Below are positions 2,023 through 24,030 of a stretch of DNA of 35,810 nt, in pieces. The notes under the pieces were generated by a model, which did no database searches, had not been told where the DNA came from, and saw only the letters and a list, made by a program, of their open reading frames with translations. Each line of letters opens with the position of its first letter. Positions within the stretch are counted from its first letter, which is position 1. The position numbers and the translations under genes were made by a program. Source of the DNA: Candidatus Bipolaricaulota bacterium (GTDB lineage: Bacteria; Bipolaricaulota; Bipolaricaulia; UBA7950; UBA9294); contig JAUWGE010000004.1 of NCBI GenBank assembly GCA_030606565.1, positions 67,256 through 103,065 of the forward strand, read 5' to 3'.

Positions 2023-2075
2023 ATGATTGCGCTATATGAACTATTCAAGCCTAGAGAGCGGGCGCGCGGGAGCAA

Positions 2076-2232: not shown

Positions 2233-2270
2233 TCAAGGAGCAGCCTGAAATAGGGCCTATGTCCCTCGAA
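2203..2270. repeat. Dispersed repeat, copy 1 (RAYT-associated terminal repeat)
   Basis: About 70 bases starting GGAATTCC and containing CGCATACCAT, CTCAAGGAGCAGCCTGAAA and TCCCTCG. The same series occurs at 4406-4473 with only scattered substitutions and one small indel, and a more diverged version is at 5201-5270. GGAATTCC is a perfect palindrome at the outer edge. Confidence 0.6.
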
Positions 2271-2303
2271 CTAGTGAAGAGGCATGGGTTTGCCATCCCC
2301 CTG

Positions 2304-2846
2304 CTACTCGTAGGGGAGTCCTTTCCCTTGGATGCGATCGGTCTGTCCCTCGGCGATGTATCGTTCGAAGTACTCTTTGCGGTACTCAGGGGGTAGGGAT
2401 TTGCGGAGCCCGATAGATTCAAGGACTTCCTCGAATGATATCCCATTGTCTGAGAGCCCCAGCATTGCCAGTACCCGAATTGCAACCTTGTCGCTTGTAC
2501 AGAACAGGAAGCTGTCAGACTCATCTGCGTAAATGATAGCGATGGCCTCCACCTCGCCGTCGTGGAGATCCAGGTTGAGCTCCTTGTCGAACACAGTACG
2601 AACTCGCTCGATGTCAGACACAGAGGCGGAGATCTCGGGGATGACTCCCTGGTTGATTAACGCGGTAAGGTTGATCGAAGCCGGGACAGCGTCTATCTTG
2701 CTGTCGAAGAACTGCGCTTCGTCGTGTGCGATTATCGATGTTACCGCTACGTCTGTTTCTTGGAGCAACGCATTCCACACATCAAGCTCATATGCCGCGA
2801 TGATTACGCTGGCATCAGGCAACAGTTGTCTCGATCTGATAGGCAT
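2304..2846 (-). CDS. PIN-domain protein paired with an XRE-ImmA regulator
   Basis: This protein of about 180 residues begins LPDASVIIAAYE, the first acidic PIN motif. Further motifs are HDEAQFF, HDGEVEAIAI and CTSDKVAIRVL, which supply the conserved acidic residues of a PIN-type nuclease fold. The frame extends further upstream, but the ATG at 2846 gives a protein starting shortly before the PIN core and overlaps the end of the XRE-ImmA gene by 32 bases. A TTG at about 2822 would avoid most of the overlap. Pairing of XRE-COG2856 proteins with a small downstream gene was described as a candidate toxin-antitoxin arrangement. A toxin role here is inference. Confidence 0.65.
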   Translation of the reverse strand: MPIRSRQLLPDASVIIAAYELDVWNALLQETDVAVTSIIAHDEAQFFDSKIDAVPASINLTALINQGVIPEISASVSDIERVRTVFDKELNLDLHDGEVEAIAIIYADESDSFLFCTSDKVAIRVLAMLGLSDNGISFEEVLESIGLRKSLPPEYRKEYFERYIAEGQTDRIQGKGLPYE

Positions 2847-3948
2847 CGGTATCTTCGAACCCGTACTCAAGAAGGGTGGCGGACAGATCGAATAGACTAG
2901 TTTCGAGTAGCTGCGCGAGCCTAGCGCGTGACAGTTTCGCTCTCTTGTAGGCGAGGAAAGCCAGCCTGACAAATCGCTCGGGCAACGGAGCTGGCTGTTG
3001 CCAGTTGGCGGGCATTGTGCTTCGATCTATCGAGCGGAAGTTTGGATCATTCAGTACGGCTCTCACTCGATCGGCGGTGAGAATCCGAAAGTGGACCATT
3101 CGCCAAAGCAGTGCCTCGGTAGACACGTCGAAGTCCCGTGCAAGTTCTACGAGATCGTCATAAGAAATCTTCCCATCCTTGACCCGAGCCTCAATCTCGA
3201 CATCCAGTACATCAGCCGGCAGGAGCAAGTTAGCAGCGAATTCATTGGCGAGACGCTCCACTTTGTCGATTAGGGCTTGGTTATCGCCCACGGATTCCTT
3301 CGATATAGTTGCTCTTGTTATCAGGTGGAACAACTCGTGAGCGAAGCTGAAATTGCGTCGCCAAGGTGCTTGCTCTCGGTGCATCAGGATCCCATATCCA
3401 AAATCCCCCATAGCTGATGCAGCAGATCCGGCTTCTCCAAGATCCTTGTACCAGATCTTCACTGAATAGTCTCCCTCAAGGATTGCTATCAAGGACGCAG
3501 CTGGCCGTCCACCAAGATCTAGCGCGTCTGCAACCTTTTTTGCAGCTACCCTGGCGTCGCCATATGAGGCCGTCTCTGGGTCCAATTCAACCTTCGGAAG
3601 GTCATGTTTGGGTGTAATCCCAAGAAGGTCCTCAAGTTCATGATATTGCCTGCAGCTCTTGAGGAATGAAGCCTCTATTGCAGCGGCTCCTTCCTCTGGA
3701 TAGTCTCTCCAGAGCACGTGCGCAGGTGCAGGCTCATCCCCTGCTATCAGATACCGAACCTCCGTGTGAAGAGCATCCGCAATCCTGACCAACTCCCAGG
3801 CCTTGACATCTCTCCCGCCACGTTCGATCTCGGATACAATCTGGTGAGCGGAGAAGCCGACCTGCTCCGCGAAGGCTCGTTGTGTGATTCCCAGCTTCTT
3901 GCGCAGTAACCGAATGCGCTCTCCAATGATCTTCTGCAGTTCCTCCAT
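2815..3948 (-). CDS. XRE-family regulator fused to an ImmA/IrrE metallopeptidase domain
   Basis: The 377-residue protein starts with an XRE helix-turn-helix (about residues 6-65, ITQRAFAEQVGFSAHQIVSEIERG). It continues into a zinc-peptidase domain with HELFH at 204-208 and EFAANLLLP starting at 237. Fused proteins of this type act as cleavable or protease-regulated repressors in mobile and defence loci. The start has GGAGGTG at a good distance. The PIN-domain gene follows with an overlap, so the two probably form one operon in which this protein regulates or neutralises its partner. That functional link is inferred. Confidence 0.85.
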   Translation of the reverse strand: MEELQKIIGERIRLLRKKLGITQRAFAEQVGFSAHQIVSEIERGGRDVKAWELVRIADALHTEVRYLIAGDEPAPAHVLWRDYPEEGAAAIEASFLKSCRQYHELEDLLGITPKHDLPKVELDPETASYGDARVAAKKVADALDLGGRPAASLIAILEGDYSVKIWYKDLGEAGSAASAMGDFGYGILMHREQAPWRRNFSFAHELFHLITRATISKESVGDNQALIDKVERLANEFAANLLLPADVLDVEIEARVKDGKISYDDLVELARDFDVSTEALLWRMVHFRILTADRVRAVLNDPNFRSIDRSTMPANWQQPAPLPERFVRLAFLAYKRAKLSRARLAQLLETSLFDLSATLLEYGFEDTDAYQIETTVA

Positions 3949-10099: not shown

Positions 10100-10219
10100 C
10101 TACTTTCCCTTGATGTGCATCGGTTGGTTGCAGCAGACGAGCGTCCCTGCTCCGGACTTCGTCACCTTCACCTCTTGCCCACAGATGTCGCAGATGTAGA
10201 TCTTACCTTCCTCTGCCAT
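10100..10219 (-). CDS. dsr: Desulforedoxin
   Basis: This 39-residue protein has four cysteines at C10, C13, C29 and C30 (ICDICG and VCCNQPM). That is the CxxC...CC rubredoxin-like iron site of desulforedoxin and of the N-terminal domain of desulfoferrodoxin. It has its own AAGGAGG site and begins ten bases after the superoxide reductase stop. The likely role is one-electron transfer to its neighbour or to other non-haem iron proteins of the operon. It stands as a separate gene and is not fused to the reductase. Confidence 0.9.
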   Translation of the reverse strand: MAEEGKIYICDICGQEVKVTKSGAGTLVCCNQPMHIKGK

Positions 10220-10229
10220 ATAAACCTCC

Positions 10230-10571
10230 TTAAAGTGTGAGTGAGCTCTCCCACAGGCCGTGGATGTTGCAGTACTCGACCGCGATCAATTCACTTAACC
10301 CCTCCAGGTTAACATGGGTAATGACCGTGGGGACCCCGTAGGTCGGTCCCAGGTCGAACGTCGCCACGTGCACCGGTCCCCCGTCCTTCACCCCGTAAAG
10401 GGCGATCCACTTGATGTGGTGCTCCACGGTGTTTGGGTGTGGCACCTCCTTACCAACGGTGACCTTGACGATCTTTTCCCCGCAGTCGGGGCAAGCGACC
10501 AGCTCGATCACCGGGACGTGCTTCTCCTTCCCTTCTTGTGCTTCCGTTTTGATTAACTCTCCAAGCCGCAT
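10230..10571 (-). CDS. sor: Superoxide reductase (neelaredoxin type)
   Basis: The 113-residue protein has the mononuclear iron centre ligands of superoxide reductase: EKHVPVIE with the catalytic Glu-Lys-His, HPN followed by EHHIKWI, and CNIHGLWE carrying the axial Cys and the last His. The N-terminal desulforedoxin domain of the two-iron form is absent, so it is the one-iron neelaredoxin class. It reduces superoxide to peroxide without making O2, the usual anaerobe strategy. The peroxide can pass to the rubrerythrin and peroxiredoxin of the same operon. AAGGAGG precedes the ATG. Confidence 0.95.
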   Translation of the reverse strand: MRLGELIKTEAQEGKEKHVPVIELVACPDCGEKIVKVTVGKEVPHPNTVEHHIKWIALYGVKDGGPVHVATFDLGPTYGVPTVITHVNLEGLSELIAVEYCNIHGLWESSLTL

Positions 10572-10610
10572 AGTTTCCTCCTTTCTTGGTCGTAAAGTTT
10601 TCTTGCAACC

Positions 10611-11786
10611 TCATTTTTTTAGATCTCGGTGACGGTTGGCTATTTCATCGGCGAGACGATCGAGCGCCTCCAACGTTGTTTCGTCAGGCAACCCCTTCAC
10701 CATCACCGGATCGAACCACTCGACTTTCAGTGTCTTCAAGAGTCCCATGACCTGTTCGGGCGCCTTTCCCGCCCAACCGTAGGAGCCGATCACCGCGGCG
10801 TACCGCAGCTTCGGCCGCAGGGCGTTCGTCAGGTAGGCGGCGTAAACTACGCTTGGGTGAGGTCCAACAAGCATGGTCGGTGCGCCAAAGACGACCGTCG
10901 CCGCATCTACTAGGGTGATGGCCAGCTTTCCAATGTCGGTTACCGTCATGTTGAACGGTTCTGTTTGCACCCCGCGATTGGCGAGGGCGGAGATCAGGTG
11001 GTCCACCATCACCTGTGTGCTCCCGTGCATCGACACATATGGGAGCACGACGAGGTTTTCCGGTGGATCGAGGACCCAGTGTCTGTAAGCGTCGAGGATG
11101 AATGCCGGGTCATCGTAGAGCGGCCCGTGGCTTGGGGCGATGATCTCGATCTCGTAGCGGGTGAGCCTTTCCAGATGCCCCTTGATAATCGAGCTAAATG
11201 GCATCATGATCTCGGCGTAGTAGCGTTTCGCCGCCTCGTAGACCCGTTTCCGCTCTCTCCCGTAGAGCTCGGTTGTAGCGAGGTGTGATCCGAGGAAGTC
11301 GCAGGTAAAGAGGATCTCCTCCTCTTTGAGGTAAGTGAACATCGTCTCCGGCCAGTGGACCCACGGCGCATGGATGAACTCGAGGGTCCGATCTCCAAGG
11401 GAGAGGGTCTCACCGTCCTCCACGGTCACGATCCGATCCGGGTCGACGTGTAGGTGATCGACGACCATCGGTCTTGCCTTCGGCGTCGTGATAAGCGTGG
11501 CGTTTGGATGCCGGTCGAGGACCTCAGGAACAGAGCCTGAGTGATCCTGCTCCACGTGCTGGACGATCAAGAAGTCAAGCTGTGGCACGGATTCAAGCTG
11601 CGCCATCAGAACATCGATCTTGTCTGGATCGACGGTGTCGATGAGAACGGTCTTCTCGCTACCCGTAACGAGGTAGGCGTTGTAGCTTGTCCCATCAGGG
11701 AGCGGAATCAGCTCGTCGAACAGTCGCCGATCGAAGTCCTGCGCCCCCATCCAGAAGACTCCTGGTACGATCTCTCTAGCGTTCAA
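10611..11786 (-). CDS. fprA: Flavodiiron protein (FprA-type O2/NO reductase)
   Basis: The 391-residue protein has a metallo-beta-lactamase-like domain with the diiron ligand set QHVEQDHSG, the His of PWVHWPE, the Asp of FTCDFLGSH and the His of PSHGPLYDD. A flavodoxin domain follows (about residues 250-390, YVSMHGSTQVM and FGAPTMLVG). Such enzymes reduce O2 to water or NO to N2O with electrons from rubredoxin, whose gene lies two genes upstream. The start is a TTG with AGGAGG just before it, overlapping the stop of the hybrid cluster gene. Confidence 0.93.
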   Translation of the reverse strand: MNAREIVPGVFWMGAQDFDRRLFDELIPLPDGTSYNAYLVTGSEKTVLIDTVDPDKIDVLMAQLESVPQLDFLIVQHVEQDHSGSVPEVLDRHPNATLITTPKARPMVVDHLHVDPDRIVTVEDGETLSLGDRTLEFIHAPWVHWPETMFTYLKEEEILFTCDFLGSHLATTELYGRERKRVYEAAKRYYAEIMMPFSSIIKGHLERLTRYEIEIIAPSHGPLYDDPAFILDAYRHWVLDPPENLVVLPYVSMHGSTQVMVDHLISALANRGVQTEPFNMTVTDIGKLAITLVDAATVVFGAPTMLVGPHPSVVYAAYLTNALRPKLRYAAVIGSYGWAGKAPEQVMGLLKTLKVEWFDPVMVKGLPDETTLEALDRLADEIANRHRDLKK

Positions 11787-11796
11787 CGGTAGCCTC

Positions 11797-13095
11797 CTAG
11801 AGCATCTCTGCGAGGTCTGTTTTCGGATCGCCGATTAGCCGTAGGTCGTAGTTCTCTTGCAGCACCTCGAGGATCTCCTCGTTCACCCACGCCGGGAGGA
11901 TCGGGCCAAGGTAGATCCCTTTGATCCCGAGCGAGAGTAACCCCCACAGGATGGTGACCGCTTTCTGTTCCATCCAGGATAGGACAATGGTTAGCGGAAG
12001 GTCGTTCACCTCCACTCCGAAGAGTTCGGAGAGGGCGATGGCGATATCGATTGCGACGATCGAGTCGTTGCACTGGCCGAGGTCGATCAGACGCGGGATC
12101 CCCTCGATATCCCCCAGGTCGAGGTCGTTGATCCGGAACTTGCCACACGCCAAGGTGAGAACGACCGTATCCCTTGGCAGGAGCTTCACGAACTCGCGGT
12201 AGTAGCTTGCCTTGCGAAGCGGCGAATCACATCCGCCGACGAGGAAGAAGTGCCGGATTTTCCCTTCTTCTACGAGCGCCTTGATCTTGTCTTTAAGCGA
12301 GAGGATCGTGGACAGAGAGAACCCGGTGGTGAGCGTCACTTCACCCAACTCATCTGGGAGTTCGGGTAGCGAGCGCGCCTTCTCAATCACCTCTGTGAAG
12401 TCGTAGCCTGCGATGTGCTTCACCCCAGGGAGCCTTGCCGGGCCGGTGGTGAACATGCGGTCCTTGTAGTCGTCTTTCGGTAAAAGGACGCAGTTTGACG
12501 TTCCGAGAATCGCCACCGGATAGTGAGAGAAGAGCTCCTTCTGATCGAACCACGCCTTACCCAGGTTTCCCACCAGGTGCTTATACTTCTTCAGGTCCGG
12601 ATATCCGTGCGCCGGGAGGAGCTCTGAGTGGGTGTAGACGTTGATCCCGGTCCCTCCTGACTGCGCAAGGAGTGCAGCGAGCGCCTTTAACCCGTGCCCG
12701 GTGACAAGGATCCCCGGTCCCTTTATGGTTCCGGTTGGTACTTCTGTCGGTTCGGGCTCCCCGTAGGTCTCGATGTGTGCCTTCTTCAAGAGGCGCATCG
12801 TTTTTATCGCCATCTCTCCGGATTCGAGCGCGAGCTTCACGAAGTCCTCAGCGTCGAAGTTAACGTTGGTGAAAGTGGAGTAGAACGCGCGTTCCAGGAA
12901 CGCGTCGATCTTGGTGTCGGTGTAGCCGAGTTCACGCGCGTGATAGAGGTAGGCCGCCATCCCTTTCGCTGAGAAGATGAGGTTATCCTGCAGCCGGGCC
13001 ACGGTCGCCGGCTTCCCGCAGACCCCTTGCACGGTGCAGCCTTCTCCCCTCGCTGTCTGGGAGCACTGGTAGCAAAACATCTTTAGATCGTTCAC
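11797..13095 (-). CDS. hcp: Hybrid cluster protein (hydroxylamine/NO reductase), short class
   Basis: At 432 residues this is the short class of hybrid cluster protein. The N-terminal [4Fe-4S] motif uses C8, C11, C20 and C26. The hybrid-cluster ligands are visible as TGHG, YTHSE, SNCVLL, GGCDSP, LACGKF, GQCNDS and the EQK pair in SWMEQKAV. Reported activities are hydroxylamine reduction and NO reduction in nitrosative and oxidative stress. The frame starts at a GTG one base after the rubredoxin stop, with AAGGAGA in front. The in-frame ATG five codons later is less well placed. Confidence 0.95.
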
Positions 13096-13096
13096 G

Positions 13097-13258
13097 TTAA
13101 CTCTCCTTTTCGAACAGTTCTTTCCCTACGCCGCACTCTGGGCAGACCCAAGTATCGGGTAGATCCTCGAATGCCGTGCCCGCCTGGATCCCGTTTACGG
13201 GATCACCGACCGCCGGATCGTAGACGTAACCGCACACCGTGCAGACCCACTTCTCCAT
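13097..13258 (-). CDS. rub: Rubredoxin
   Basis: This 53-residue protein has the two iron-binding knuckles [10 protein letters not shown] and CPECGVGK. It carries single electrons, here most plausibly to the flavodiiron protein and rubrerythrin. It starts two bases after the flavin reductase stop, with AGGAGG overlapping that stop, and the hybrid cluster protein gene begins one base after its own stop. Gene order flavin reductase then rubredoxin matches the domain order of the fused high-molecular-weight rubredoxin (Hrb) of Moorella. Confidence 0.95.
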
Positions 13259-13260
13259 TC

Positions 13261-13776
13261 CTACCTCCTCTTTCTCATCGTCTTTCGGTACTCGTTGTAG
13301 GTTAAGGGTTCTCCCCCCTCCCGCGTCCCGGCACGCTCGACCAGGGCCACAAATAAGGTATGTGTCTCAAGATCGAGCATCATCTCTGGGATAACGCGGC
13401 ATTCGTAGAACGCCTTTGCCTTTGGGAGGATCGGGATTCCGTTCTCGCTTAACTCGTGGGGAGTCTCTGCGAACTTGTCCACCGCGCGCCCGGACTGGAA
13501 GCCGAAGTGGCGGATCACCTCCGGACAGTCTTCATCCTCGCGATCGAGGACGTTGACGACGAAGCGCTCGCTTGCCGCGATCATCTCGTGGGTGAGTGAG
13601 CGCTTGTTGACCCCGATTGCGATCCGCGGTGGTGCGCTTGTCACCTGCATCAGCGCGTCGAGGCACTGGCCGTTTAACCGGCCTTCATGTTCGGCGGTGA
13701 CGACGTACAGGCCGTGCGTCACCTGAAACAGGGCTTGGTTCAGCTCCGCGGTCTCTTTCACGATGAAAAACGCCAT
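13261..13776 (-). CDS. Flavin reductase-like FMN protein (Hrb N-domain type)
   Basis: The 171-residue protein belongs to the flavin-reductase-like fold. Signatures are an N-terminal [10 protein letters not shown], then [12 protein letters not shown] and [11 protein letters not shown], and it ends in a basic tail. In acetogens a fused version with rubredoxin (Hrb) transfers electrons from NAD(P)H to the flavodiiron protein. Here the rubredoxin is the next gene, two bases away, so the pair should do the same as separate polypeptides. GGGAGG precedes the ATG. Confidence 0.88.
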
Positions 13777-13802
13777 CTTGCCTCCCTGTCTTTCAGTGTG
13801 TC

Positions 13803-14315
13803 TTACTCCTCGTTCTCGGTGGGGGCGGCGATACGCGTTCCCAGCTCACGATCGGCCATGATCAGGCCGTGGCCGGAATCACCGATCCGTTTCAATAGCT
13901 CCACCACCTTTAACGTCGAGGACTCCTCCTCCACCTGCTCGGTGACGAACCATTGAAGCATGATCCCTGCTGCGTGATCTTTCTCTTCGGCAGCGAGCTT
14001 AACCAAGTCGTTGATCTTCCCGGTGATGAACCGCTCGTGCTCGTGGGCCGCCTTGAATGCCTCTAAGGGCGAGGCCCACTCCTTTTGCGGCTGGGCGAGG
14101 GCTTTAAGTTCGACCCGTCCATCCCGCTCGTCGATGTGGTTGAAGAACTTCATCGCGTGAGCGAGTTCCTCCTGAGCCTGGACAGTCATCCACTGCGCCA
14201 TCCCGTCGAGGCTCTCGGAATGAAAGTACGCTACCATGGAGAGGTAGAGGTATGCCGATTCCAGTTCGTGCTTGATCTGCTCGTTTATCGCATCCTGCAT
14301 CCGTTTTCCGATCAT
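13803..14315 (-). CDS. ftn: Bacterial non-haem ferritin
   Basis: The 170-residue four-helix protein has ferroxidase ligands at E17 (HELESAY), E50 and H53 (EELAHAM), E94 (HEHE), Q127 and E130 (TEQVEEE). It stores iron as a mineral while consuming O2 or peroxide, which lowers Fenton chemistry. It is the fifth gene of the perR operon, between peroxiredoxin and flavin reductase, with an AAGGAG site upstream. Confidence 0.95.
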   Translation of the reverse strand: MIGKRMQDAINEQIKHELESAYLYLSMVAYFHSESLDGMAQWMTVQAQEELAHAMKFFNHIDERDGRVELKALAQPQKEWASPLEAFKAAHEHERFITGKINDLVKLAAEEKDHAAGIMLQWFVTEQVEEESSTLKVVELLKRIGDSGHGLIMADRELGTRIAAPTENEE

Positions 14316-14330
14316 TGATTTCTCCTTTCC

Positions 14331-14999
14331 TTAAAGCTTCTTGTGGCAGAGCCACCAGTCGAAACACTCGTATTCCTTAACCGCTTTTTTTGCCGCTTCT
14401 TCATCCGTGGGCGGTGGGACGATGACCTCGTCACCCACGAGCTCGTTGTTTGGCCAGTTTGCCGGGATCGCGACGCCGTTTTGGTCGGCGGTTTGCAACC
14501 CTTTTACCATCCGCACGATCTCGTCCATGTTGCGCCCCAGTTCCTGGGGGTAGTAGAGGATGGCGCGGATAATCCCTTTGGGATCGACAATGAACACCGC
14601 GCGTACCGTGTTAGTTCCCTTTCCCGGGTGGATCAGTCCGAGTTGGTTTGCCACCGCCTCGGTCCCGGCAATTATGGGAAAACTTATCTCTACCTTGAGG
14701 TGATCCTTGATCCACTCTGTCCACTTCATGTGCGAGAAGACCTGGTCAATGGAGAGACCGACAAGACCGCAATCGAGCTTGCGAAACTCGTCGAAACGCT
14801 TCTGGAAGGCGATAAACTCGGTCGTACAGACCGGCGTGAAGTCCGCCGGATGGCTGAACAGGACGAACCACTTGCCACTGTAGTCCTCCGGAAGAGAGAG
14901 TCTCCCGTGTGTCGTCTGCACCTCCATCTTGGGAAGCGCATCGCCGATGAGGGGCATCCCTTTTCTTTCATCCTTGGTGAGTAGGTACCGATCTTCCAT
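14331..14999 (-). CDS. Peroxiredoxin (Prx6/archaeal thioredoxin peroxidase type)
   Basis: The 222-residue protein has the peroxidatic cysteine C58 in [13 protein letters not shown] and a long C-terminal arm with C212 and C218 (YECFDWWLC). This is the arrangement of Aeropyrum-type 2-Cys Prx6 enzymes. It reduces H2O2 and alkyl peroxides, probably with thioredoxin- or rubredoxin-derived electrons. It lies between rubrerythrin and ferritin, with an AAGGAGG site. Confidence 0.94.
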
Positions 15000-15025
15000 G
15001 TCTATTACCTCCTTTTTATAATTTT

Positions 15026-15598
15026 TTACCAGTTTTCGCCTAAAAGCTCGAAGTGCGCCTGCGGATGGGCACAGGCCGGGCAGACCGAAGGGGCCTCGGT
15101 GCCGGTGTGCAGGTACCCGCAGTTGCGACAGCGCCAGACCACCGGTTGATCCTTCTTGAAGACGGTCCCTGCCTCGACGTTTCTAAGCAGGCCGAGATAA
15201 CGTTTTTCGTGTTGCTTCTCCGCCACTGCAATCGCTTCAAAGACCTTCGCGATCTCGGTGAAACCCTCCCCGCGGGCTGTCTCGGCAAACCCGGGATACA
15301 TCTCCTCCCACTCGTAGTGCTCACCGCCGGCCGCAGCCTTCAGGTTCTGTGCTGTCGTCCCGATAACCCCGGCGGGAAACGCCGCCTCGACCTTGACCTC
15401 GCCGCCTTGAAGGAACTTAAACAGCCTCTTCGCGTGCTCCTTCTCCTGATTTGCCGTCTCCTCAAAGATCGTTTGAATCTGTACGAATCCGTCCTTCTTC
15501 GCCTGGCTGGCGAAATAGGAGTAGCGGTTACGCGCCTGCGACTCGCCGGCGAACGCTGTAAGTAGGTTCTTCTCCGTCCGTGATCCTTTCAGTTCCAT
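15026..15598 (-). CDS. rbr: Rubrerythrin
   Basis: The 190-residue protein has an N-terminal four-helix diiron domain ([34 protein letters not shown]) and a C-terminal rubredoxin-like domain with CRNCGY and CPACAHP. It is an NADH- and rubredoxin-linked peroxidase that reduces H2O2 to water in the anaerobe cytoplasm. AAAGGAGG stands before the ATG, and mutM ends 21 bases upstream. Confidence 0.96.
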
Positions 15599-15619
15599 CT
15601 AGTTTCCTCCTTTTTGTTG

Positions 15620-16465
15620 TCATAGAGCCGTTTTATTAATCTCCCTTAACTTTTGCACGTTTGTAGTCTTCTCGCACCTCTGGCAACCAGGGCAGAAGTA
15701 GGTCGATCGCCCGGCCTGCACGATCCGTTCAATCTTCTTTCCGCAACGGCGGCAGGTCTCTCCCTCCCGGCCGTAGACCGAGAGAACCTCCTGAAACCCT
15801 CCGTACTCTCCGGACGTGTTGCGATAGTCGGAGATCGTATCGCCGAGTGTAGTTCCCATGTGGTCGATTGCCTCCTTGAGTACCCCCACGATAGCGGGGT
15901 GAAGCGCCCGGATCTCCTTTTGGGTGAGCGTGTTCCCAGCTCGGCACGGATCGATACGTGCGCGCCACAGGGCTTCGGCAGAGTAGATGTTCCCGATCCC
16001 GGCGATCCTCTTCTGGTTCATCAGCAGGGGCTTTATCGGGGCGCGCGAGGCCATGACGACCTCTGCCAACCGCTCCGGCGTGAACTCCGGGTCGAACGGG
16101 TCGATTCCGAGCCGGTGCGGGAAGCCGTTACGCGAGTACTCGACCGTTCCCAACCGCCGCGGGTTGATGAAATAGACCTTTCCACGGTCGAGGTGGAGGA
16201 TGAAGCGTGTGTGCCGTACCTCCTCGGGGGAACGGGTGCGGGTGAGTCGGCCGGACATACGCAGGTGGACGATGAGCGACCTCCCCCCGGAGAGGCGGAA
16301 GACGATGTACTTTCCTTGCCGCTCGATCTTCTCGATCGTCGTTCCGACGATCTCATGCACAGGGAGATCTAGGCGCGGGTCGAGGACCTGTAGTCTCTCG
16401 ATCCTCGCTCCGCTTAGATCGCTCAGCTCGCGGACGATCGTTTCGACCTCAGGGAGCTCCGGCAT
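15620..16465 (-). CDS. mutM: Formamidopyrimidine-DNA glycosylase
   Basis: The 281-residue protein starts MPELPEVET, with the catalytic Pro and Glu of the Fpg/Nei family. It has the helix-two-turn-helix segment (GIGNIYSAEALW) and ends in a CRRC...CPGC zinc finger. It removes 8-oxoguanine and ring-opened purines from DNA. Its start overlaps the end of perR by 17 bases, and rubrerythrin follows 21 bases on, which ties oxidative DNA repair to the peroxide regulon. Confidence 0.96.
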   Translation of the reverse strand: MPELPEVETIVRELSDLSGARIERLQVLDPRLDLPVHEIVGTTIEKIERQGKYIVFRLSGGRSLIVHLRMSGRLTRTRSPEEVRHTRFILHLDRGKVYFINPRRLGTVEYSRNGFPHRLGIDPFDPEFTPERLAEVVMASRAPIKPLLMNQKRIAGIGNIYSAEALWRARIDPCRAGNTLTQKEIRALHPAIVGVLKEAIDHMGTTLGDTISDYRNTSGEYGGFQEVLSVYGREGETCRRCGKKIERIVQAGRSTYFCPGCQRCEKTTNVQKLREINKTAL

Positions 16466-16943
16466 CGTCCCTCCTTTTCGTGCTCACTGAAGAACGCCTT
16501 ACTCCTGTTTTAGATTCGTTCTTATTCTGGCTGTTCTGCTTTTGACATTGTACACAAATCCCGTGGAGGTAGACTTGTGCTACTTCCACGAGGTGCCCGC
16601 AAATCTCGTCCCCCGGTCGGATGGAACAGGGAAGATCGACGTCGTATAGGTTGCCACAGACTCGGCAGAGAAAGTGTGGATGGGGACTGGGGTTATAGTC
16701 ATACCGCGCCGCCTCGCGGGCGATGGTGAGTTCCTGAATACCCCCTGCCTTCTTCAGCGCGTCGAGCACGTTGTACACCGTCGCCTTGGCGAGCGAGGGG
16801 AACTGGTCCCGCACCCCTTGATAGACCTCCTCCGCGGTGGGGTGGGTGTGGTTATTCTCCAGGTACTCCAATACTGCCAACCGCTGGATCGTAGGGACAA
16901 GTCCCAACTTTCGCAACCTTGTAGAGCGAGCTCCAATATCCAT
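16449..16943 (-). CDS. perR: PerR-type peroxide-sensing repressor (Fur family)
   Basis: This 164-residue Fur-family protein has a winged helix (ATVYNVLDAL) and two CxxC zinc pairs (C93, C96 and C130, C133). The regulatory metal ligands align with a constant offset of three to Bacillus PerR: H34, D82, H88, H90 and D101 for H37, D85, H91, H93 and D104. Asp at the last position is the PerR rather than Fur signature and supports iron-catalysed peroxide sensing. A basic tail of about 30 residues follows the last CxxC. It heads the 11-gene operon. Confidence 0.93.
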   Translation of the reverse strand: MDIGARSTRLRKLGLVPTIQRLAVLEYLENNHTHPTAEEVYQGVRDQFPSLAKATVYNVLDALKKAGGIQELTIAREAARYDYNPSPHPHFLCRVCGNLYDVDLPCSIRPGDEICGHLVEVAQVYLHGICVQCQKQNSQNKNESKTGVRRSSVSTKRRDDAGAP

Positions 16944-16944
16944 A

Positions 16945-16959
16945 TTAGAACTATTATAA
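16945..16959 (-). promoter_or_regulatory. PerR-box-like operator at the perR start
   Basis: Minus-strand TTATAATAGTTCTAA matches the PerR box TTATAAT-N-ATTATAA at twelve of fourteen fixed positions. It begins in the -10 hexamer and ends just before the ATG, so bound repressor would block transcription of the operon, including perR. Confidence 0.65.
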
Positions 16960-16981
16960 ACTTAGAACGACTAAAAATCAA
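16953..16981 (-). promoter_or_regulatory. Promoter of the perR operon
   Basis: On the minus strand TTGATT (16976-16981) is followed by exactly 17 bases and a perfect TATAAT (16953-16958). The predicted start at about 16946 lies within three or four bases of the ATG at 16943, and no ribosome binding site is possible, so the message should be leaderless. TTAGAAC is repeated at 16945-16951 and 16962-16968. Confidence 0.75.
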
Positions 16982-17013
16982 GTGCTGTGAGAAGAGTGCT
17001 ACAGGTGAAGACT

Positions 17014-17049
17014 GCTGGCCGAAGCCAGCGATTTTGGTCGCGCAAAATC
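17014..17049. other. Two tandem perfect hairpins upstream of perR
   Basis: GCTGGC-CGAA-GCCAGC (17014-17029) is followed without gap by GATTTTG-N6-CAAAATC (17030-17049). Neither has a U tract. They lie in the 305-base gap between the SDR gene and perR. The rest of this gap, beyond the promoter, shows nothing I can support. Confidence 0.45.
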
Positions 17050-17248
17050 CGATGGTTGGTTTGCTGTAGGACGCTGTTGATGGCCTTTTAGATGGGGCGG
17101 GTGGGAGCGGAGGCTAAGTAGGCGGACGGTTTTCTTAAGTCAGATTATCTATCTTCGATAAAAGTAAGGGATTTGATGATATCCATCATTGATCCTCAAT
17201 CGGCACTGCCTAACTGCAAGAGCTCGCCTACGCCGCGCAGGAGTATTA

Positions 17249-18091
17249 CTAATCCCTCGGGTTCGACATCCTATACGCCGGGGGTTGATTTCCATCGATG
17301 TCGGTGAAGCCGTACTCGCGCGCAAGATCACCCACGGTCAGGACGCTTCCCGCCTTTTCCATCACGTTGGGATCGGTCGCGAGGGCGGCAACCGCCCGCC
17401 CGATGTACTCCACCGATTCGGTCTTGCTCAGTTCTTCAGGAGTGTGTTTATCTGCCATCACTGATTCCGTGCGCATCCAACCGGGCGAGAGTGCCACAGC
17501 GGCGATATGGTACTTCCGCAGTTCCAGTGCCATCCCGTAAGCCATGCGGTTGATTGCCGTCTTTGCCAAGTCATAGGGTAGATTGCTGAGACATTTGCCC
17601 CGATCCCAAAAGGTGGTATTCACTATGAGTCCCTGGCGGTGTGACATCATGAGCGGGATCGCGAAGCGACTGGCCGTATAGTGGGCGCGCACCCCTGCCG
17701 TGAATATCTTCTCCCAGCGCCAGAGCGGCTGCTCCCAGAACGGGAGGTCGAAGGTGCGGTCATCGTATTGTTCATACCCGCCCCAGACGTTGTTCACCAG
17801 AATATCGAGCCGGCCGTGTTCCTGCTTCACTCGCTCAAACAGCGCTTCGACTTGTTCATCCACCGTGTGGTTGCAGCGGACGGGAATGCCCGTCCCACCT
17901 CGTGCGGCGAGTTGCTCTGCGGTGTCTTCGATGGTGGTGCCAGGCAAGTCTGGTCTTGTGGGATCACCCCTGATGCTGCGTCCCGTCACGTAGACCGTGG
18001 CTCCCTCCTCACCAAGCACGAGGGCGATACCGCGCCCCCCACCGCGACTGGCTCCAGTGACCACGGTTATCTTCCCCTTTAAACGCTGCAT
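17249..18091 (-). CDS. Short-chain dehydrogenase/reductase, DHRS1-like
   Basis: The 280-residue Rossmann protein has the cofactor motif TGASRGGGRGIALVLGEEG and NN at LDILVNNVWGG. The catalytic YDLAK is preceded by NTTFWDRGK, where a Thr seems to sit where most family members have Ser. Sequence style is that of the DHRS1-like group; the substrate is unknown. It lies upstream of perR on the same strand, about 305 bases away, and shares no operon signal with it. Confidence 0.88.
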   Translation of the reverse strand: MQRLKGKITVVTGASRGGGRGIALVLGEEGATVYVTGRSIRGDPTRPDLPGTTIEDTAEQLAARGGTGIPVRCNHTVDEQVEALFERVKQEHGRLDILVNNVWGGYEQYDDRTFDLPFWEQPLWRWEKIFTAGVRAHYTASRFAIPLMMSHRQGLIVNTTFWDRGKCLSNLPYDLAKTAINRMAYGMALELRKYHIAAVALSPGWMRTESVMADKHTPEELSKTESVEYIGRAVAALATDPNVMEKAGSVLTVGDLAREYGFTDIDGNQPPAYRMSNPRD

Positions 18092-18155
18092 AATCCGCCG
18101 CCGTTGCTTTTAGTTTTTCAGCCGGCACTAGCTTTAGCTAAGGTCCTTATCGCTC

Positions 18156-18641
18156 TTAGCTATTGCCATTCCACGACTCGATTTCCACCTCATCAACGGT
18201 CTCGTTATCCTCTCCAAACGTAAAGCGCGCCCGTATCCGCTCCCCTGCAAGGATGCGTGGGAGCCAATGAGCCCCATCTTTCCACATGCGCTCGAAGGGT
18301 ATATCGTCTACCTTGAACCAAACAGGCTTCATCTCTGTGCTTTCCGTCGGCGTGCCCTCCCACGTTGTCACCACAAAGACATGCACCACTTGATTCCAAG
18401 AGGGTTTTGCGGGAAACAGGAATGTTAAGTGGCCCATCTGCTGGAGGTCCTTTTTGCAGATCTTGATTCCTGTCTCTTCTTCTAGTTCTCTGATAGCGGC
18501 TGTTGCTACCGTTTCTCCCGCCTCGACTTTGCCCCCAGGACCATTGTATTTCCCCGCGCCAAACCCGATCTTCTTGAAGCCCAAGAGGACCTCATTGGCC
18601 GGATTTCCTCGTATCGGAAAACAAAGTGTCGCGTCTTTCAT
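18156..18641 (-). CDS. NUDIX hydrolase, MTH1-like (oxidised nucleotide diphosphatase)
   Basis: The 161-residue protein has a complete NUDIX box from GGKVEAGE to RELEEETGI at about residues 36-58. It also has the MTH1-like KYNGPGGK lead and a C-terminal WLPRILAGERIRARFTF region. Such enzymes hydrolyse 8-oxo-dGTP and related purine triphosphates, though the substrate is not proven here. Its ATG overlaps the stop of the small upstream frame in an ATGA junction and has AAGGAG in front. Confidence 0.88.
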   Translation of the reverse strand: MKDATLCFPIRGNPANEVLLGFKKIGFGAGKYNGPGGKVEAGETVATAAIRELEEETGIKICKKDLQQMGHLTFLFPAKPSWNQVVHVFVVTTWEGTPTESTEMKPVWFKVDDIPFERMWKDGAHWLPRILAGERIRARFTFGEDNETVDEVEIESWNGNS

Positions 18642-18868
18642 CGTTGCTCCTTAGCGTATCCCATGCCGCTTACAGATGAGATCACCCTCGAGGTGGAGCC
18701 TATGCCGTTAGCCGATACAAACAGATTCAACGGAGCGTTTACAAGCTGTTCGATGGAGCGCTCGACTGCGTATGTGTGCGTATGCGCAGGGTCTGGTGGC
18801 GTTCGTAGTCCAATGTCCTCTCTTGCGGAGCCGAGAACGGCTGCTATGAATTGTGTTTCAGATTTCAT
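18638..18868 (-). CDS. Small hypothetical protein between the nucleotidase and NUDIX genes
   Basis: A 76-residue frame begins 11 bases after the nucleotidase stop and ends in an ATGA overlap with the NUDIX start, so the arrangement looks like a coupled operon gene. The product (MKSETQFIAAVLGS... to ...SGMGYAKEQR) matches no family I know and has no clear ribosome binding site. A longer form starts at 18898 inside the upstream gene. It could be a chance frame. Confidence 0.4.
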   Translation of the reverse strand: MKSETQFIAAVLGSAREDIGLRTPPDPAHTHTYAVERSIEQLVNAPLNLFVSANGIGSTSRVISSVSGMGYAKEQR

Positions 18869-18879
18869 AATGTCGATGG

Positions 18880-20370
18880 CTAGGGAATGGAGAGCCAACG
18901 ACCCTGCATCGGCTGAGGCACGGGCGAATGTCGGCGCACGTAGTCTTCAATCACTTCGCGCAAGATCGTCGGTACCTCCTGCTCCGTGCTCTGTCCCTTG
19001 TCCAACACCAGGTAGCCGACCTTCGACATAGTTTCGGCATCGGTATGCGCGAGGCAATACAGGCGATTCGGATCAATTGGTTCCCCCTGCACCATGACAC
19101 GCCGCACCCGGCCTCCTACGTCTGCGCCCGGGTCGTACTCGACCACCACGCCGCTGATTTGCGGGATGCCAATGGGTGTCCCTCGGAAACCGTGATGCTT
19201 GAACTGCGAGATGGCAGGATCCAGGCCATGCTCCAAGGCGGTCAAGATCTGCTCACCTCGAACCTTGGTCAAGCATGGATTGGCTGTTGTGAAACAAGAA
19301 GCATCGAGCTCGCCCAAGGTGATCGTGCCTGCTGGCAGGCCCTGGTTAAGAAGTCCGCTGGCAACGATGGCCACATCAGCTTCCAGGTGCTCTCGCAGCG
19401 CATCAGCGGTGAGGTTTCCAATACCGCACTCGTGGAAGTGATCCAGGTTGAGTGGTACTTCCAACACCCCGATGGGTTCTGCTACCAACGCGTCCACCTC
19501 TTGCTCGGCGGCGGCGATGGCTGCCAGCATGGCTGGGTCAGGCGGCTCGTCCTCGGGCACGTCCAGCACCTGGGCCGAGTGTTCCAGCATCCGTCCATCA
19601 TCTGGATCCAGCGTTAAATCTACCCGACCGAGAGCCTCGGCATATTGGCCCGCCTGAGCAACGAGGACGCCGCTAGATTCTTCCCCTGTAGGCAACCGGT
19701 TGTGGGAATGCCCGCCGATGATCAGGTCAATCCCGGGCACTGACTTGGCTAGGTGCCGATCATCTTCCAGGCCGAGGTGGGAGAGCACAACGATCGGCCC
19801 CCCACACTGCTTTCTCAGCTTTCCGACCAGGGCGCGGGCTACATCACAGAAGTCAGGAAAGTGGAGCCCAAACAGTTCGTAGAGTCCTTCCCAGGGGGCG
19901 GTTAGACCGATGACGCCCATAGTCAAGCCGTGTGGCAGGGGAATGAGCACATATTCTTGAAGCCCTTTGGGCAGCGGTCCATCGCCATCCCGGCAGTTGG
20001 CGGCCAAGATGGGGAAATCGGCCCGAGCCGCCACCGCGGCCATCGCTTGTGGACCATACGGCAGGGAGATGGCATTGCCCATCGTCTGTAAGGTGTACCC
20101 CATTGCGGTGAGAATCGGCGAGAAGGTAGCACCTTTCGTAAGGCTGCATAGACGAACTCGACGGTCCGCAGCATCGCCGGCATCCCAGAAGAAGACCTGT
20201 CGCCCCTGAGCCTCCGCCTCAGCCCGTAACCCGCGGGCAAAGGCACTCAGACGGGCCATGGCCTCCAGATGACCATGTATGTCGTTGGTGTGAAAAATGG
20301 AAAGAGCGACAGGTTCCTTAGGTTTTAATGTCCGTTCTAGCATCTCATGTTTTGTAAGAGGTTTATGCAT
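18880..20370 (-). CDS. Cytoplasmic 5'-nucleotidase/UshA-like metallophosphoesterase with altered GNH motif
   Basis: The 496-residue protein has the UshA two-domain layout. The N-terminal metallophosphatase motifs are HTNDIHGHLE, WDAGDAAD, VLSHLGL and GGHSHN, and the C-terminal nucleotide-binding domain spans about residues 300-496. The motif normally reading GNHE(F/W)D is GNAISLPYG here, so the metal-binding Asn is kept and the catalytic His is Ala. There is no signal peptide, unlike periplasmic UshA. Activity may be changed or directed to another substrate. Its start overlaps the 2H phosphoesterase gene by eight bases. Confidence 0.85.
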   Translation of the reverse strand: MHKPLTKHEMLERTLKPKEPVALSIFHTNDIHGHLEAMARLSAFARGLRAEAEAQGRQVFFWDAGDAADRRVRLCSLTKGATFSPILTAMGYTLQTMGNAISLPYGPQAMAAVAARADFPILAANCRDGDGPLPKGLQEYVLIPLPHGLTMGVIGLTAPWEGLYELFGLHFPDFCDVARALVGKLRKQCGGPIVVLSHLGLEDDRHLAKSVPGIDLIIGGHSHNRLPTGEESSGVLVAQAGQYAEALGRVDLTLDPDDGRMLEHSAQVLDVPEDEPPDPAMLAAIAAAEQEVDALVAEPIGVLEVPLNLDHFHECGIGNLTADALREHLEADVAIVASGLLNQGLPAGTITLGELDASCFTTANPCLTKVRGEQILTALEHGLDPAISQFKHHGFRGTPIGIPQISGVVVEYDPGADVGGRVRRVMVQGEPIDPNRLYCLAHTDAETMSKVGYLVLDKGQSTEQEVPTILREVIEDYVRRHSPVPQPMQGRWLSIP

Positions 20371-20926
20371 TTATCGTACCTCGCTTGCTTCCCGCAAGCG
20401 TGTGCGAGAAAAGCGTTTCGCAACCGACTCGAGAAACTTTGATGATTTTGAGCGCTTCTGCCTGAGCGTGAATCGGCAAAGAAGCTCCCCGAGAAATGCT
20501 CACTGCTTTGGTGATCTTGCCGGGTGAGAGGCCAACGGCGAGCGTACAGTGCGGGACCCAGGATAAAGGACAGTAATGAGGCCAGGGCTTCTTCGCATGC
20601 TCTTCAAAGAGTCGGTGAACAGCGGCGTGCAAACTCAGGAGTTCTTTCGTCACGGTTACGCCAAAGAAGAGGATGCCTTCTTCTGTTGGGAAGATCCCGA
20701 TACTGGATAGGAGAAGCGGGAATGGCGAGATAGTGGTCATATAGGAAGACAACTCATCCTGTAGTCCCTTCACATCGAGTTTATCGCAGACACAAAGCGA
20801 CAGATGAGGGCGGAGACCCTCAACAAGCATAGATGAGGAGACGCCCGCTTCGGCGAGGGCTTCCCACGTCCGGCGAATTGTGGTTTCGGTTGTTCCATCA
20901 AAGGTCAGTACGACACCAACTGGCAC
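20363..20926 (-). CDS. 2H phosphoesterase / 2'-5' RNA ligase-like protein
   Basis: The 187-residue protein has the two HxS/T motifs of the 2H superfamily, HLSLCV and HCTLAV, about 88 residues apart. The start is a GTG preceded by AAAGGGGGA. Members hydrolyse or form 2'-5' or cyclic phosphodiester bonds in RNA. It is coupled to the nucleotidase-like gene by an eight-base overlap, which suggests linked nucleotide or RNA-end metabolism (inference). Confidence 0.8.
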   Translation of the reverse strand: MPVGVVLTFDGTTETTIRRTWEALAEAGVSSSMLVEGLRPHLSLCVCDKLDVKGLQDELSSYMTTISPFPLLLSSIGIFPTEEGILFFGVTVTKELLSLHAAVHRLFEEHAKKPWPHYCPLSWVPHCTLAVGLSPGKITKAVSISRGASLPIHAQAEALKIIKVSRVGCETLFSHTLAGSKRGTINA

Positions 20927-21193
20927 CCGGTCCCCCTTTATTCGCCTTACAGTGTAGCATCTTTGTCACTCTGTGGTAGGGTGGGTGCAGGTTCAAGCGG
21001 CGCTTGGAGGACTCACCCCCGATTGGAGTAGACTAGATGCGCTATCTTGAACGTCTGAGCGTAGGCAACTTGTGAATGGTGTAGACAAGAATTGAGAGGC
21101 CCCCATGCTTTTCCGCACCGAAAGCTAGGGGAGCAGAGTGGCAAGCAAAAGAGGCACGGAAGACCGCGCCCCTTAGTCCCAAATCGACAATTG

Positions 21194-22156
21194 TTACAGA
21201 GGCATTATCGGCTCGCAGATATCGACTATGTGCTTGCCCTCGGGGTGGGTCTTCGGGTCGTTGAGGTAGAGCTCGTAACACAGGCGATCGTCGGGCTGGT
21301 AGCCGCTTTCGGGAAACCATTCACCCATCAGCTTGTCCCACGCCTCAGCGTACTGGTCTTCGTTGATCTCCACGTGAGCCACCGCAAACATTCCCCCGGG
21401 GATCGTCATCGTTCCAACTTCGCCCTCAACAGGTGTGTCCTTGGGTACGGTGATACAAGCACTTGAACGAAGCTTTGACTCCTCGGTGATCTCGGGGTTG
21501 TCGTGGTACACACCCAGAAGCTTCGTCTCAGGGAAGTTGATCAACCCACGCGGTCCGGCCCACCGCATCAGCTTCTCGATAGCTCCCCCGATCTGGTTGT
21601 ACGGGCCAACGTGGCGGATGTAGGCCACGTGCAGTTCGGGCAGCTCTTTCACTTCGACAGTCATCTCGATCATCTTCGTCCTCCTTCTTTTTATTTGGAG
21701 TATACCCTCAGTGTAGTTCAAAGACGCGGCATCGTCTTTCCCATCCTTGCGAATCGATTTTCCGATCTTGCTTTTCGGTTGACGGAGCTTACTCAATGAC
21801 TTAAGCCCGCCACGGCGAAACTGGGAGGCGCTCATTCCGAAGAAGGTCCTAAACTCGCGAGCGAAGGAAGCAGAGCTTGAGAATCCGCAGTGCATGGCAA
21901 TGGCAGTGATCGTCATCTTGGGATTGTTGATGAGCTTCATCGCCGCGGTCTCGGCACGGATCCGTCGAATGAAGGTGTTGAGAGTTTCCCCGGTTATCCC
22001 ACGGAAGACTCGGTGAAAGTGATAGGGGGAGAAGTTGGCCACTCCCGCAAGTTTCTCAAGACAGAGGTCCCCGTTAAGGTTCGCGCCGATATAATCCATA
22101 ACGCGATTTATGCGGGCCACGTACTCTTGTCTCATCCGCTCGCGTCTATTGTGCAT
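21194..22156 (-). CDS. AraC-family regulator with GyrI-like effector domain
   Basis: The protein has an N-terminal AraC double helix-turn-helix (CLEKLAGVANFSPYHFHRVF and ITAIAMHCGFSSSASFAREF). A GyrI/SbmC-like domain follows (about 155 residues, beginning MIEMTVEVKELPELHVAYI and containing HVGPYNQIG). This Rob/BmrR-like architecture senses hydrophobic or drug-like ligands. The frame opens at 22204, but the ATG at 22156 has AAAGGAT at a suitable distance. The 267-base gap downstream to the phosphoesterase gene shows nothing I can support. Confidence 0.88.
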   Translation of the reverse strand: MHNRRERMRQEYVARINRVMDYIGANLNGDLCLEKLAGVANFSPYHFHRVFRGITGETLNTFIRRIRAETAAMKLINNPKMTITAIAMHCGFSSSASFAREFRTFFGMSASQFRRGGLKSLSKLRQPKSKIGKSIRKDGKDDAASLNYTEGILQIKRRRTKMIEMTVEVKELPELHVAYIRHVGPYNQIGGAIEKLMRWAGPRGLINFPETKLLGVYHDNPEITEESKLRSSACITVPKDTPVEGEVGTMTIPGGMFAVAHVEINEDQYAEAWDKLMGEWFPESGYQPDDRLCYELYLNDPKTHPEGKHIVDICEPIMPL

Positions 22157-22231
22157 GTCGGAGTAAATCCTTTGATGATTTCTATGGCCCGATGTAGCAA
22201 CCAAAGCTTAATGTGAACTCATCTCACTTTA

Positions 22232-22936
22232 TTACGGGCGTCTTCCGATGAACAACCCCCTGCCTATCAATCCCTTAGGATCGTAGGTTACTTCAAGGCC
22301 GGCGTTAGCGAGGACAGCACGAATCTCATCTGTCTCAAACAGTCCAAGTTCGTGATGTTCAACAAAGTGCTCCGTTCCCTCCGGTGTCCCGATCAAGTAG
22401 TGAAGGTCAAAAAACGACAGGCGCCCGTCAGCAAAACTCGTGTTGACTCGGGCGATCTTTAAATCGGGCTCATCGATGAAGAGAGAATGGACCGTGCCAG
22501 AATGCCAAGCATCAGGAGTGAACCAGGGTTCGATGACAAGGATACCACTAGGCAGCAAGTGATGTGTCATACAATCCACCGCGCGAGCGAGGTTGTCCAG
22601 TGTTTTGAGATAGCCGATCGAGCTGAAAAGACAGGTTATAACGTGAAACTTGCGATGAAGATCAAAGTTCATCATATCGGCGTGATGGAAGGTGATGCCA
22701 GGGTTTCGCCTCCGAGCGAGATCGAGGAGTTCTTGGGAAATGTCGAGCCCCTCAACGTCGAAGAGCGCTTTTAGGTATTCGATATGGCACCCTGTTCCAC
22801 ACGCTACATTCAACAGGCGGTTTTCCTCCGAGCAAAGGTACTCACGAATGATGGAAATGAGCTTCAGCGCTTCCGTGCGATAGTCCTTGAAAGAGTAGAT
22901 TTTATCGTAATAGGTAGCTGATTCTGAAAACACCAC
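22232..22936 (-). CDS. Class I SAM-dependent methyltransferase
   Basis: The 234-residue protein has motif I LLNVACGTGCHIEYL and the acidic GLDISQELLDLAR. It also has FSSIGYLKTLDNLARAV and the late strand LPSGILVIEPW. It starts with GTG behind GGGAGGA. The fold is of the small-molecule methyltransferase type, and the substrate cannot be told. It is on the same strand as the AraC gene, 75 bases upstream of it. Confidence 0.85.
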   Translation of the reverse strand: MVFSESATYYDKIYSFKDYRTEALKLISIIREYLCSEENRLLNVACGTGCHIEYLKALFDVEGLDISQELLDLARRRNPGITFHHADMMNFDLHRKFHVITCLFSSIGYLKTLDNLARAVDCMTHHLLPSGILVIEPWFTPDAWHSGTVHSLFIDEPDLKIARVNTSFADGRLSFFDLHYLIGTPEGTEHFVEHHELGLFETDEIRAVLANAGLEVTYDPKGLIGRGLFIGRRP

Positions 22937-23093
22937 GTCCTCCCTTGGTGGTCGGGTTTGATTTCGATTCTGTAAAGCTCCTTACAAGGCACCTTGCTGA
23001 TGGTAGAGGGTACTGGTCGAACCTGTTGGGGATCAAGGTCTGCCCTCCGATTTTAGTATTGAAGGAAGTAGCGGGACCTCTGCTGGTGGATTC

Positions 23094-23876
23094 CTAGAGT
23101 TTGCTGACTTTCCGCGCGATGAGCTTCTTTATTTTCTTGTAGGAAGGTGGTGGCCCAGTGCGAACCTCCTTGTTGTCGATGAATAAGGCATCTGAGGTGC
23201 CCCACTCGAGCAGGGTGGGCCGGTCGAACGTATCGATCTCCTGGAACACGACCTTGTCGCCAAATTCAGCCGCGGCCCGCTTTGCCCGTTCGTATACGAT
23301 GTTCTGCGCCTGGCACCACCCGTTAACAAACGAGGTTACCGTCACCTTCCCAGGAGTCGTCTCCGGCTTCTTCTTCTTTTTGATCCACTTGGGAGGGATA
23401 GCGTCGTTTGCGAATGGTTTCCAGAGGAGAACCTGAATCCCCTGCTTGTCAACCTTGGTGTACCCCTGTTTTTTGAACCACGAGGCCCTCATCCAGAAGG
23501 GCAGAGATATCCCCCAGGCGACCATTCCCTTCGCCCCTTTCTCTTTAGCATCACTCTCTGCGGCCTTTAGCAATGCCTTCCCCATTCCCCTCTTCTGGAA
23601 GTTTCCTCTTCCCTTTTTGTAGCCGTGTACCCATATGCAATAGATGAGGTGGAGGTCCTGCCCTTCTACAAAAGTGTGCTCGATCGGGGCATACTGGATC
23701 ATCCCTCCTACTTCTCCGGTATCATCAAGCGCCAGCTTTACCCCGAGGCCTTGATCCTTCATCTTCTCGTACCACACCCGTTTGTGGTCCCCCGCCTCTT
23801 TCATCTCATCTGACCAGTCTTCAAGACAGAAGAAGTACAGTTCCTTTCGATCATCAGTCAGATCGACGATTTGCAT
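23094..23876 (-). CDS. GNAT acetyltransferase with YoaP-like C-terminal domain
   Basis: The 260-residue protein has an N-terminal GNAT domain (acetyl-CoA loop around NFQKRGMGKALLKAAE). A C-terminal thioredoxin-like segment of the YoaP type follows, with SFVNGWCQAQN at about residue 188 and a terminal PPSYKKIKKLI motif. The acceptor substrate is unknown. GAGGTGA precedes the ATG. The gene diverges from yjbQ. Confidence 0.82.
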   Translation of the reverse strand: MQIVDLTDDRKELYFFCLEDWSDEMKEAGDHKRVWYEKMKDQGLGVKLALDDTGEVGGMIQYAPIEHTFVEGQDLHLIYCIWVHGYKKGRGNFQKRGMGKALLKAAESDAKEKGAKGMVAWGISLPFWMRASWFKKQGYTKVDKQGIQVLLWKPFANDAIPPKWIKKKKKPETTPGKVTVTSFVNGWCQAQNIVYERAKRAAAEFGDKVVFQEIDTFDRPTLLEWGTSDALFIDNKEVRTGPPPSYKKIKKLIARKVSKL

Positions 23877-24030
23877 AGTTTCACCTCTTCCTTAATTTTC
23901 CATAGCCTGCCACAGTCTTCCTGTGCCCCTCTGAACACCACGAGCGTGCACCTTGGCGCCGGTTGAAGTCAAATTTGGCAATCATTACCTTATGGGCGTC
24001 TGATCGGCCCGCACCTGGCCGCGGAGGTTC

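Follow-up and report, generated by a model that had tools for sequence, protein, structure and literature searches.

The oxygen-defence island

The window considered here is a 35,810-nucleotide (nt) stretch of DNA from a Candidatus Bipolaricaulota bacterium, which is represented by a metagenome-assembled genome (MAG) of 1.81 Mb in 63 contigs, 91% complete. It contains, within a 103 kb contig, an oxygen-defence island of eleven intact open reading frames, all on the minus strand and reading from 16943 down to 10100. Gene identities were assigned with Pfam and NCBIfam profiles and with PDB searches for solved relatives. The first gene, perR (16449..16943), encodes a repressor of 164 amino acids assigned to the peroxide-sensing members of the FUR family (PDB 2FE3). 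It is followed by mutM2 (15620..16465), encoding an operon-linked Fpg/MutM protein of 281 amino acids (1EE8); by rbr (15026..15598), for rubrerythrin (190 amino acids); by prx (14331..14999), for an archaeal-type (Prx6-like) peroxiredoxin of 222 amino acids (3W6G); and by ftn (13803..14315), for a ferritin of 170 amino acids. Next come flr (13261..13776), encoding an FMN flavin-reductase-like protein of 171 amino acids (1I0R), and rub (13097..13258), encoding rubredoxin (53 amino acids). The distal part of the island consists of hcp (11797..13095), for a short-form hybrid cluster protein or hydroxylamine reductase (HCP) of 432 amino acids (7e0l); fdp (10611..11786), for a class A flavodiiron protein (FDP) of 391 amino acids (NCBIfam and 1YCF); sor (10230..10571), for the catalytic (neelaredoxin) protein of superoxide reductase (SOR), 113 amino acids (2AMU); and dx (10100..10219), for a free-standing desulforedoxin of 39 amino acids recognised by profile and by its CxxC-x15-CC motif.

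From perR to dx the successive gaps measure -17, 21, 26, 15, 26, 2, 1, 10, 39 and 10 nt, the longest lying directly before sor. An AGGAGG-like or GGAG-like purine-rich ribosome-binding site precedes ten of the eleven genes, perR being the exception. An earlier note on this DNA had described eleven genes in an uninterrupted run on one strand, with these identities, with gaps ranging from a 17-base overlap to 39 bases and with an AGGAGG-type site at almost every gene; all of this is borne out.

PerR has all nine of the residues sought in it, namely the metal-site residues H37, D85, H91, H93 and D104 and the four zinc-site cysteines of Bacillus subtilis PerR. Position 104 is aspartate, not glutamate as in Fur. 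The metal and zinc ligands are kept in the window protein and in 18 orthologues, two of which have D85E. A PDB search returns B. subtilis PerR (2FE3) as the closest solved relative. The best NCBIfam PerR equivalog model scores 96 bits against a cut-off of 180; this model looks clade-specific and is not treated as defining the family. With perR and rbr co-directional and an operator before the first gene (see below), the island is organised like an operon of the perR-rbr type.

The perR promoter and its operator

A pattern scan, together with an alignment of the perR upstream regions of 18 related loci, places a -35 element, TTGATT, at 16976..16981 and a -10 element, TATAAT, at 16953..16958 on the minus strand. 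With its 17-nt spacer (16981-16953) this is the sole minus-strand promoter match between 9000 and 18000, and a rescan of the island only returned, again, just the perR promoter. No terminator-like site was found on the minus strand by pattern scan of the same interval. Between the end of the -10 element and the perR ATG there are 9 nt. It appears that perR alone lacks a ribosome-binding site because its message is predicted, from the position of the -10 element, to have no leader or hardly any.

Two PerR-box-like 15-mers overlap this promoter on the same strand. The first, TTTTAGTCGTTCTAA (16962..16976), was detected by alignment and occupies the promoter spacer. The second, a putative PerR box with the sequence TTATAATAGTTCTAA (16945..16959), overlaps the -10 element and matches 13 of the 15 positions of the B. 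subtilis Per-box consensus TTATAATNATTATAA, as quoted in PMC545781, with the N position scored as a match. A stricter PerR-box core, TTAKAANNNTTMTAA, is matched exactly at a single place in the 1.81 Mb assembly, namely at perR. The Per box at perR is a candidate autoregulatory site that is present, unique in the assembly and conserved. Allowing one mismatch adds three sites, as compared to seven in a reversed control, and these were dropped; one of the three lies, by eye, 24 nt before a tRNA-like sequence. The pattern is the one expected of a one-site PerR regulon, with weaker boxes possible and about 9% of the genome missing.

Alignment of the 18 loci reveals a fixed architecture of TTGATT, a 17-nt spacer, TATAMT, about 9 nt and ATG, and no conservation 5' of the -35 element. 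The spacer carries TTAGANNNNNTCTAA in most of the genomes aligned. Box strength is traded between the two positions, the good box lying over the -10 element in the genus of the window and in the spacer in most others. A scan of 33 genomes for the strict spacer form, TTGATTTAGANNNNNTCYAA, gave 13 sites versus none in the control. Ten of them are at perR, and two, at a perR-less mutM operon in the related genome G013, are one site on contigs that overlap by 141 nt. A site in G022:C3 was taken as a chance match, there being no recognisable defence gene behind it. In the G013 locus perR is gone and the same promoter, with the palindromes TTAGACGCAATCTAA and TTAGAATGATTCTAA, stands directly before mutM, now accompanied by a ribosome-binding site. 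The promoter therefore stays with the operon even where perR does not.

It could be argued that the signal sensed is iron, manganese or zinc instead of peroxide and that the genes behind it form mainly an iron-homeostasis or ferritin operon. The PerR scores fall under the NCBIfam equivalog cut-offs, and the operon includes a ferritin and a reductase resembling 1I0R of Archaeoglobus fulgidus. We consider this quite improbable, given that the nearest solved relative is B. subtilis PerR, that the PerR-type Asp104 and His37/His91 are kept, and that the operator is Per-box-like.

The region upstream of the perR promoter is an insertion/deletion hot spot. In the same-genus genome G031 (locus L060) the stretch corresponding to 16983-23948 of the window, directly upstream of the promoter, is absent and the junction falls at the -35 element. 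In G032 (L085) part of the perR upstream stretch, window 17140-21859, is absent.

The locus across the family and the placement of hcp

The order perR-mutM-rbr-(prx)-ftn-flr-rub-fdp...sor-dx is found throughout a Bipolaricaulota family, and the window holds the compact form of this locus. Counting only loci where both genes are seen, perR and mutM lie side by side in 20 of 21 (the one departure being G030, where a stray piece of mutM lies at the end of a contig), mutM and rbr in 22 of 22, and rbr and prx in all nine where an operon prx is present. Likewise, ftn-flr (15/15), flr-rub (17/17) and sor-dx (10/10) are always adjacent. Compared with relatives, all eleven genes give dN/dS values of 0.05-0.19, a sign of purifying selection; since, in addition, about 20 related genomes have the same gene order, the cluster is not a chance arrangement. 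The genome search proposed in the earlier note thus recovers the order in some 20 independently assembled relatives; it also reveals that the arrangement is not unique and that some members split the block.

Most relatives carry 2.4-3.7 kb of other genes between fdp and sor-dx. The extra genes between the blocks encode Rrf2, a DUF438-hemerythrin-PAS protein and a SufC-like ABC ATPase with a SufBD-core protein. Others specify a 2-oxoacid:ferredoxin oxidoreductase pair, a second Prx, a second rubrerythrin, ferritin-like proteins and nitroreductases, and a gene for an Nramp transporter follows dx. The oxidoreductase pair lies between fdp and sor in L072, L074 and L078 (one subunit in L075), which belong to one family branch. 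It is a possible local electron source.

A tentative history of hcp can be read from these relatives. In four of them (G017, G020, G022 and G023) a sigma-70-type site with 11 of 12 matches lies between rub and an Rrf2-DUF438-hcp unit. In the window a single nucleotide separates rub from hcp, with no sense promoter match there, and DUF438 was not found in the genome to which it belongs; this and other whole-genome statements rest on targeted searches. In a tree of HCP sequences the compact loci with a complete hcp (the window, G013 and contig C59, see below) are monophyletic with a support of 0.979, and the DUF438-linked copy of G031 falls outside. The simplest reading, a tentative one, is that a single deletion of the Rrf2-DUF438 module and its promoter placed hcp behind rub. 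The deletion step is held tentative because G031 has 8% contamination. If correct, the missing module would be an example of a nitrosative-stress gene that changed its regulator through deletion.

We propose that the eleven genes make up a single operon repressed by PerR, as the compact version of the Bipolaricaulota family oxygen-defence locus, and assign this reading a probability of about three in four. The single PerR-controlled unit suggested in the earlier note is favoured by the one promoter, the one box in the genome, the lack of internal terminators and the conserved operator; it is no isolated oddity. Internal promoters or terminators that would split the block were looked for, and none matched on the sense strand inside the island. 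Several points weigh on the other side. Consensus scans are blind to non-sigma-70 promoters and to Rho-dependent termination. The sequence after dx does not fold as a terminator any better than its shuffles (z-score -0.46). The left half of the first box is degenerate in the window and palindromic in most relatives, and the genome is only a 91% complete MAG. Moreover, the block is split in relatives, so that internal promoters overlooked by the scan may exist.

These points bear on a different model, in which the cluster is conserved without being one transcript. The perR promoter would drive perR to rub, and hcp-fdp and sor-dx would depend on weak or unrecognised internal promoters subject to other regulation, for example of the NO or Rrf2 type. 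Such a model would account for the strong promoter-like site that separates rub from the Rrf2-DUF438-hcp unit in the four relatives, for the kilobases that set sor-dx apart from fdp in most relatives and for the position of the largest gap of the window, 39 nt, before sor. However, the 1-nt gap between rub and hcp, where no sense promoter match is left, and the failure to find DUF438 in the genome argue against it, and we regard it as unlikely.

An artefact of assembly or binning that joined unrelated pieces has also been considered. The source is a MAG, and a 5.75 kb contig of the same assembly (C59 of G000, locus L067) bears a second copy of the operon, without prx and ftn. This copy was rejected as a true second copy, since its DNA is 92% identical to the G013 locus (genus g9) but only 80% to the window; it is probably contamination or a second strain. 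The same-genus locus L060 (G031), compared with window 16982-13745, shows mosaic divergence, being about 89-98% identical over perR-mutM and 68-77% over prx, a pattern that suggests a recombination mosaic within the genus or a MAG chimera. Against this, the gene order recurs in about 20 independently assembled genomes and the island sits inside a 103 kb contig. Synteny largely refutes the artefact, to which we attach a negligible probability. Outside C59, fdp, hcp and rbr are single copies in the assembly, and their functions are therefore not duplicated elsewhere in it.

Enzymes, proposed mechanism and related systems

MutM2 has the N-terminal PELPEVE, the H2TH domain and the FPG zinc finger (three Pfam domains), and its curated score is 262.8 bits against a cut-off of 212. 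A second mutM, 37% identical to mutM2, is located on contig C54, and most relatives own both. That a MutM paralogue is linked to the operon points to DNA repair being induced along with the removal of peroxide. Operon-linked MutM proteins, including that of the window (15620-16465), have PRRLG where the Thermus thermophilus enzyme has PRRFG. This is presumably a lesion-probing position.

The flr and rub genes, 2 nt apart in the window and 2-6 nt apart in 17 of 17 loci, are not fused as in Hrb-type proteins. Because the pair is invariant, it suggests a split version of an Hrb-type NAD(P)H:rubredoxin reductase. Close relatives of flr (at least 60% identity) were confined to the family of the window in a search of 100 genomes of the phylum. 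The best solved relative, A. fulgidus 1I0R, is an enzyme that we take to be a ferric reductase, and the release of iron from ferritin is an alternative role for flr.

The iron-centre motifs of 2Fe-SOR were taken from PMC11980386. A regular expression for Center II, EKH-x(19-27)-H-x5-H-x(40-63)-C-x2-H, matches sor, here in the form EKH-x26-H-x5-H...C-x2-H. Center I, CxxC-x15-CC, is not in the sor polypeptide; it is found in the separate 39-residue dx product encoded 10 nt downstream. We propose that sor and dx may constitute a functionally split 2Fe-SOR. The N-terminal part of sor has an extra CxxC (CPDCGEK) outside the catalytic motif, which is kept in most relatives and missing in L064. FDP matches the solved 1YCF over its full length, with the HxExDH region and the downstream His/Asp residues aligned, as expected of class A, in which a lactamase-like diiron domain with His/Asp/Glu ligands is joined to a flavodoxin domain. 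HCP scores 645 bits with TIGR01703 (cut-off 361) and aligns with 7e0l over residues 2-431. Searches of 33 family genomes, with working controls, turned up neither the Fe/Mn superoxide dismutase C-terminal domain nor cytochrome bd.

A mechanism can be outlined from these assignments and from what is known of the protein families. Metal-loaded PerR (PerR-Fe), bound to one or two overlapping boxes, would repress its own sigma-70-type promoter until peroxide oxidises the repressor and frees it. One message, with its 5' end at the perR ATG or no more than about 3 nt from it, would then serve the whole chain. FDP would reduce O2 to water, or NO to N2O; SOR with the free desulforedoxin would convert superoxide to H2O2, and rubrerythrin and Prx would turn H2O2 into water. 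Ferritin would store the released iron, the dedicated MutM2 would excise oxidised guanine, and HCP would cope with NO, nitrogen oxides or hydroxylamine-type damage. Flavin reductase and rubredoxin may form an electron line from NAD(P)H via rubredoxin to Rbr, SOR/Dx and FDP. Loss of the internal Rrf2-DUF438 regulatory module and its promoter would have brought hcp under PerR. Taken furthest, the proposal is a single-operator PerR regulon: all of the inducible oxygen defence of the cell, together with an 8-oxoguanine glycosylase paralogue of its own and hcp as a captured nitrosative-stress gene, would depend on one leaderless promoter with two boxes, and this switch would have arisen when an internal NO-responsive unit was lost. 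We advance it tentatively, rating it slightly more doubtful than probable.

Rbr, FDP, Hrb, SOR and rubredoxin are said to occur together in Moorella thermoacetica, where rbr-fprA-hrb and rbo-rub reportedly form two divergent operons with a fused Hrb (Das et al. 2001); this cluster is not known to include perR, mutM, ferritin or hcp. Further parallels are the three-gene operons perR-rbr-roo of Geobacter and perR-rbr-rdl of Desulfovibrio vulgaris, in which perR comes first and is followed by rubrerythrin and by FDP or rubredoxin (PMC545781). As in the window, the operator palindrome of Geobacter overlaps the -10 element. In contrast, the operator of these bacteria departs from the B. subtilis Per box, whereas that of the window is B. 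subtilis-like and precedes eleven genes; D. vulgaris also has further PerR targets, rbr2 and ahpC (PMC545781), where the window's genome apparently has one site. The PerR-controlled rbr operon of Clostridioides difficile (rbr, perR, sor and CD0828) likewise unites rubrerythrin, SOR and a rubredoxin-domain electron donor, but it has four genes and a fused 2Fe-SOR, and FDP, HCP, ferritin and MutM lie outside it (PMC11980386). For Ca. Bipolaricaulis anaerobius Ran1, of the same phylum, superoxide reductase, rubrerythrin and peroxidases are listed in a passage of PMC6092417 that, unlike the present case, describes no operon or PerR control.

The statement in the earlier note that anaerobes usually scatter these functions is consequently valid only in degree, as perR is clustered with rbr, FDP or SOR in Geobacter, Desulfovibrio and C. 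difficile. These three have already established the perR-rbr kind of operon, and the surprise is in degree, not in principle. The literature searched gave, apart from an unrelated Frankia paper, no account of a rubrerythrin operon in Bipolaricaulota or of PerR combined with formamidopyrimidine-DNA glycosylase and rubrerythrin. New features are the size of the operon, a MutM paralogue found throughout the family, a SOR and an Hrb that are each split in two, an operator that is apparently the only one, and the presence of hcp. For a phylum of anaerobes of which almost no member is in culture, the locus would define a pathway of oxygen defence together with its sensor.

Scans of the window against Rfam and for tRNAs gave no matches. 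Within it, at 279-3948, an AbiE-like nucleotidyltransferase/regulator pair and a XRE/ImmA-type plus PIN-like pair can be recognised by eye.

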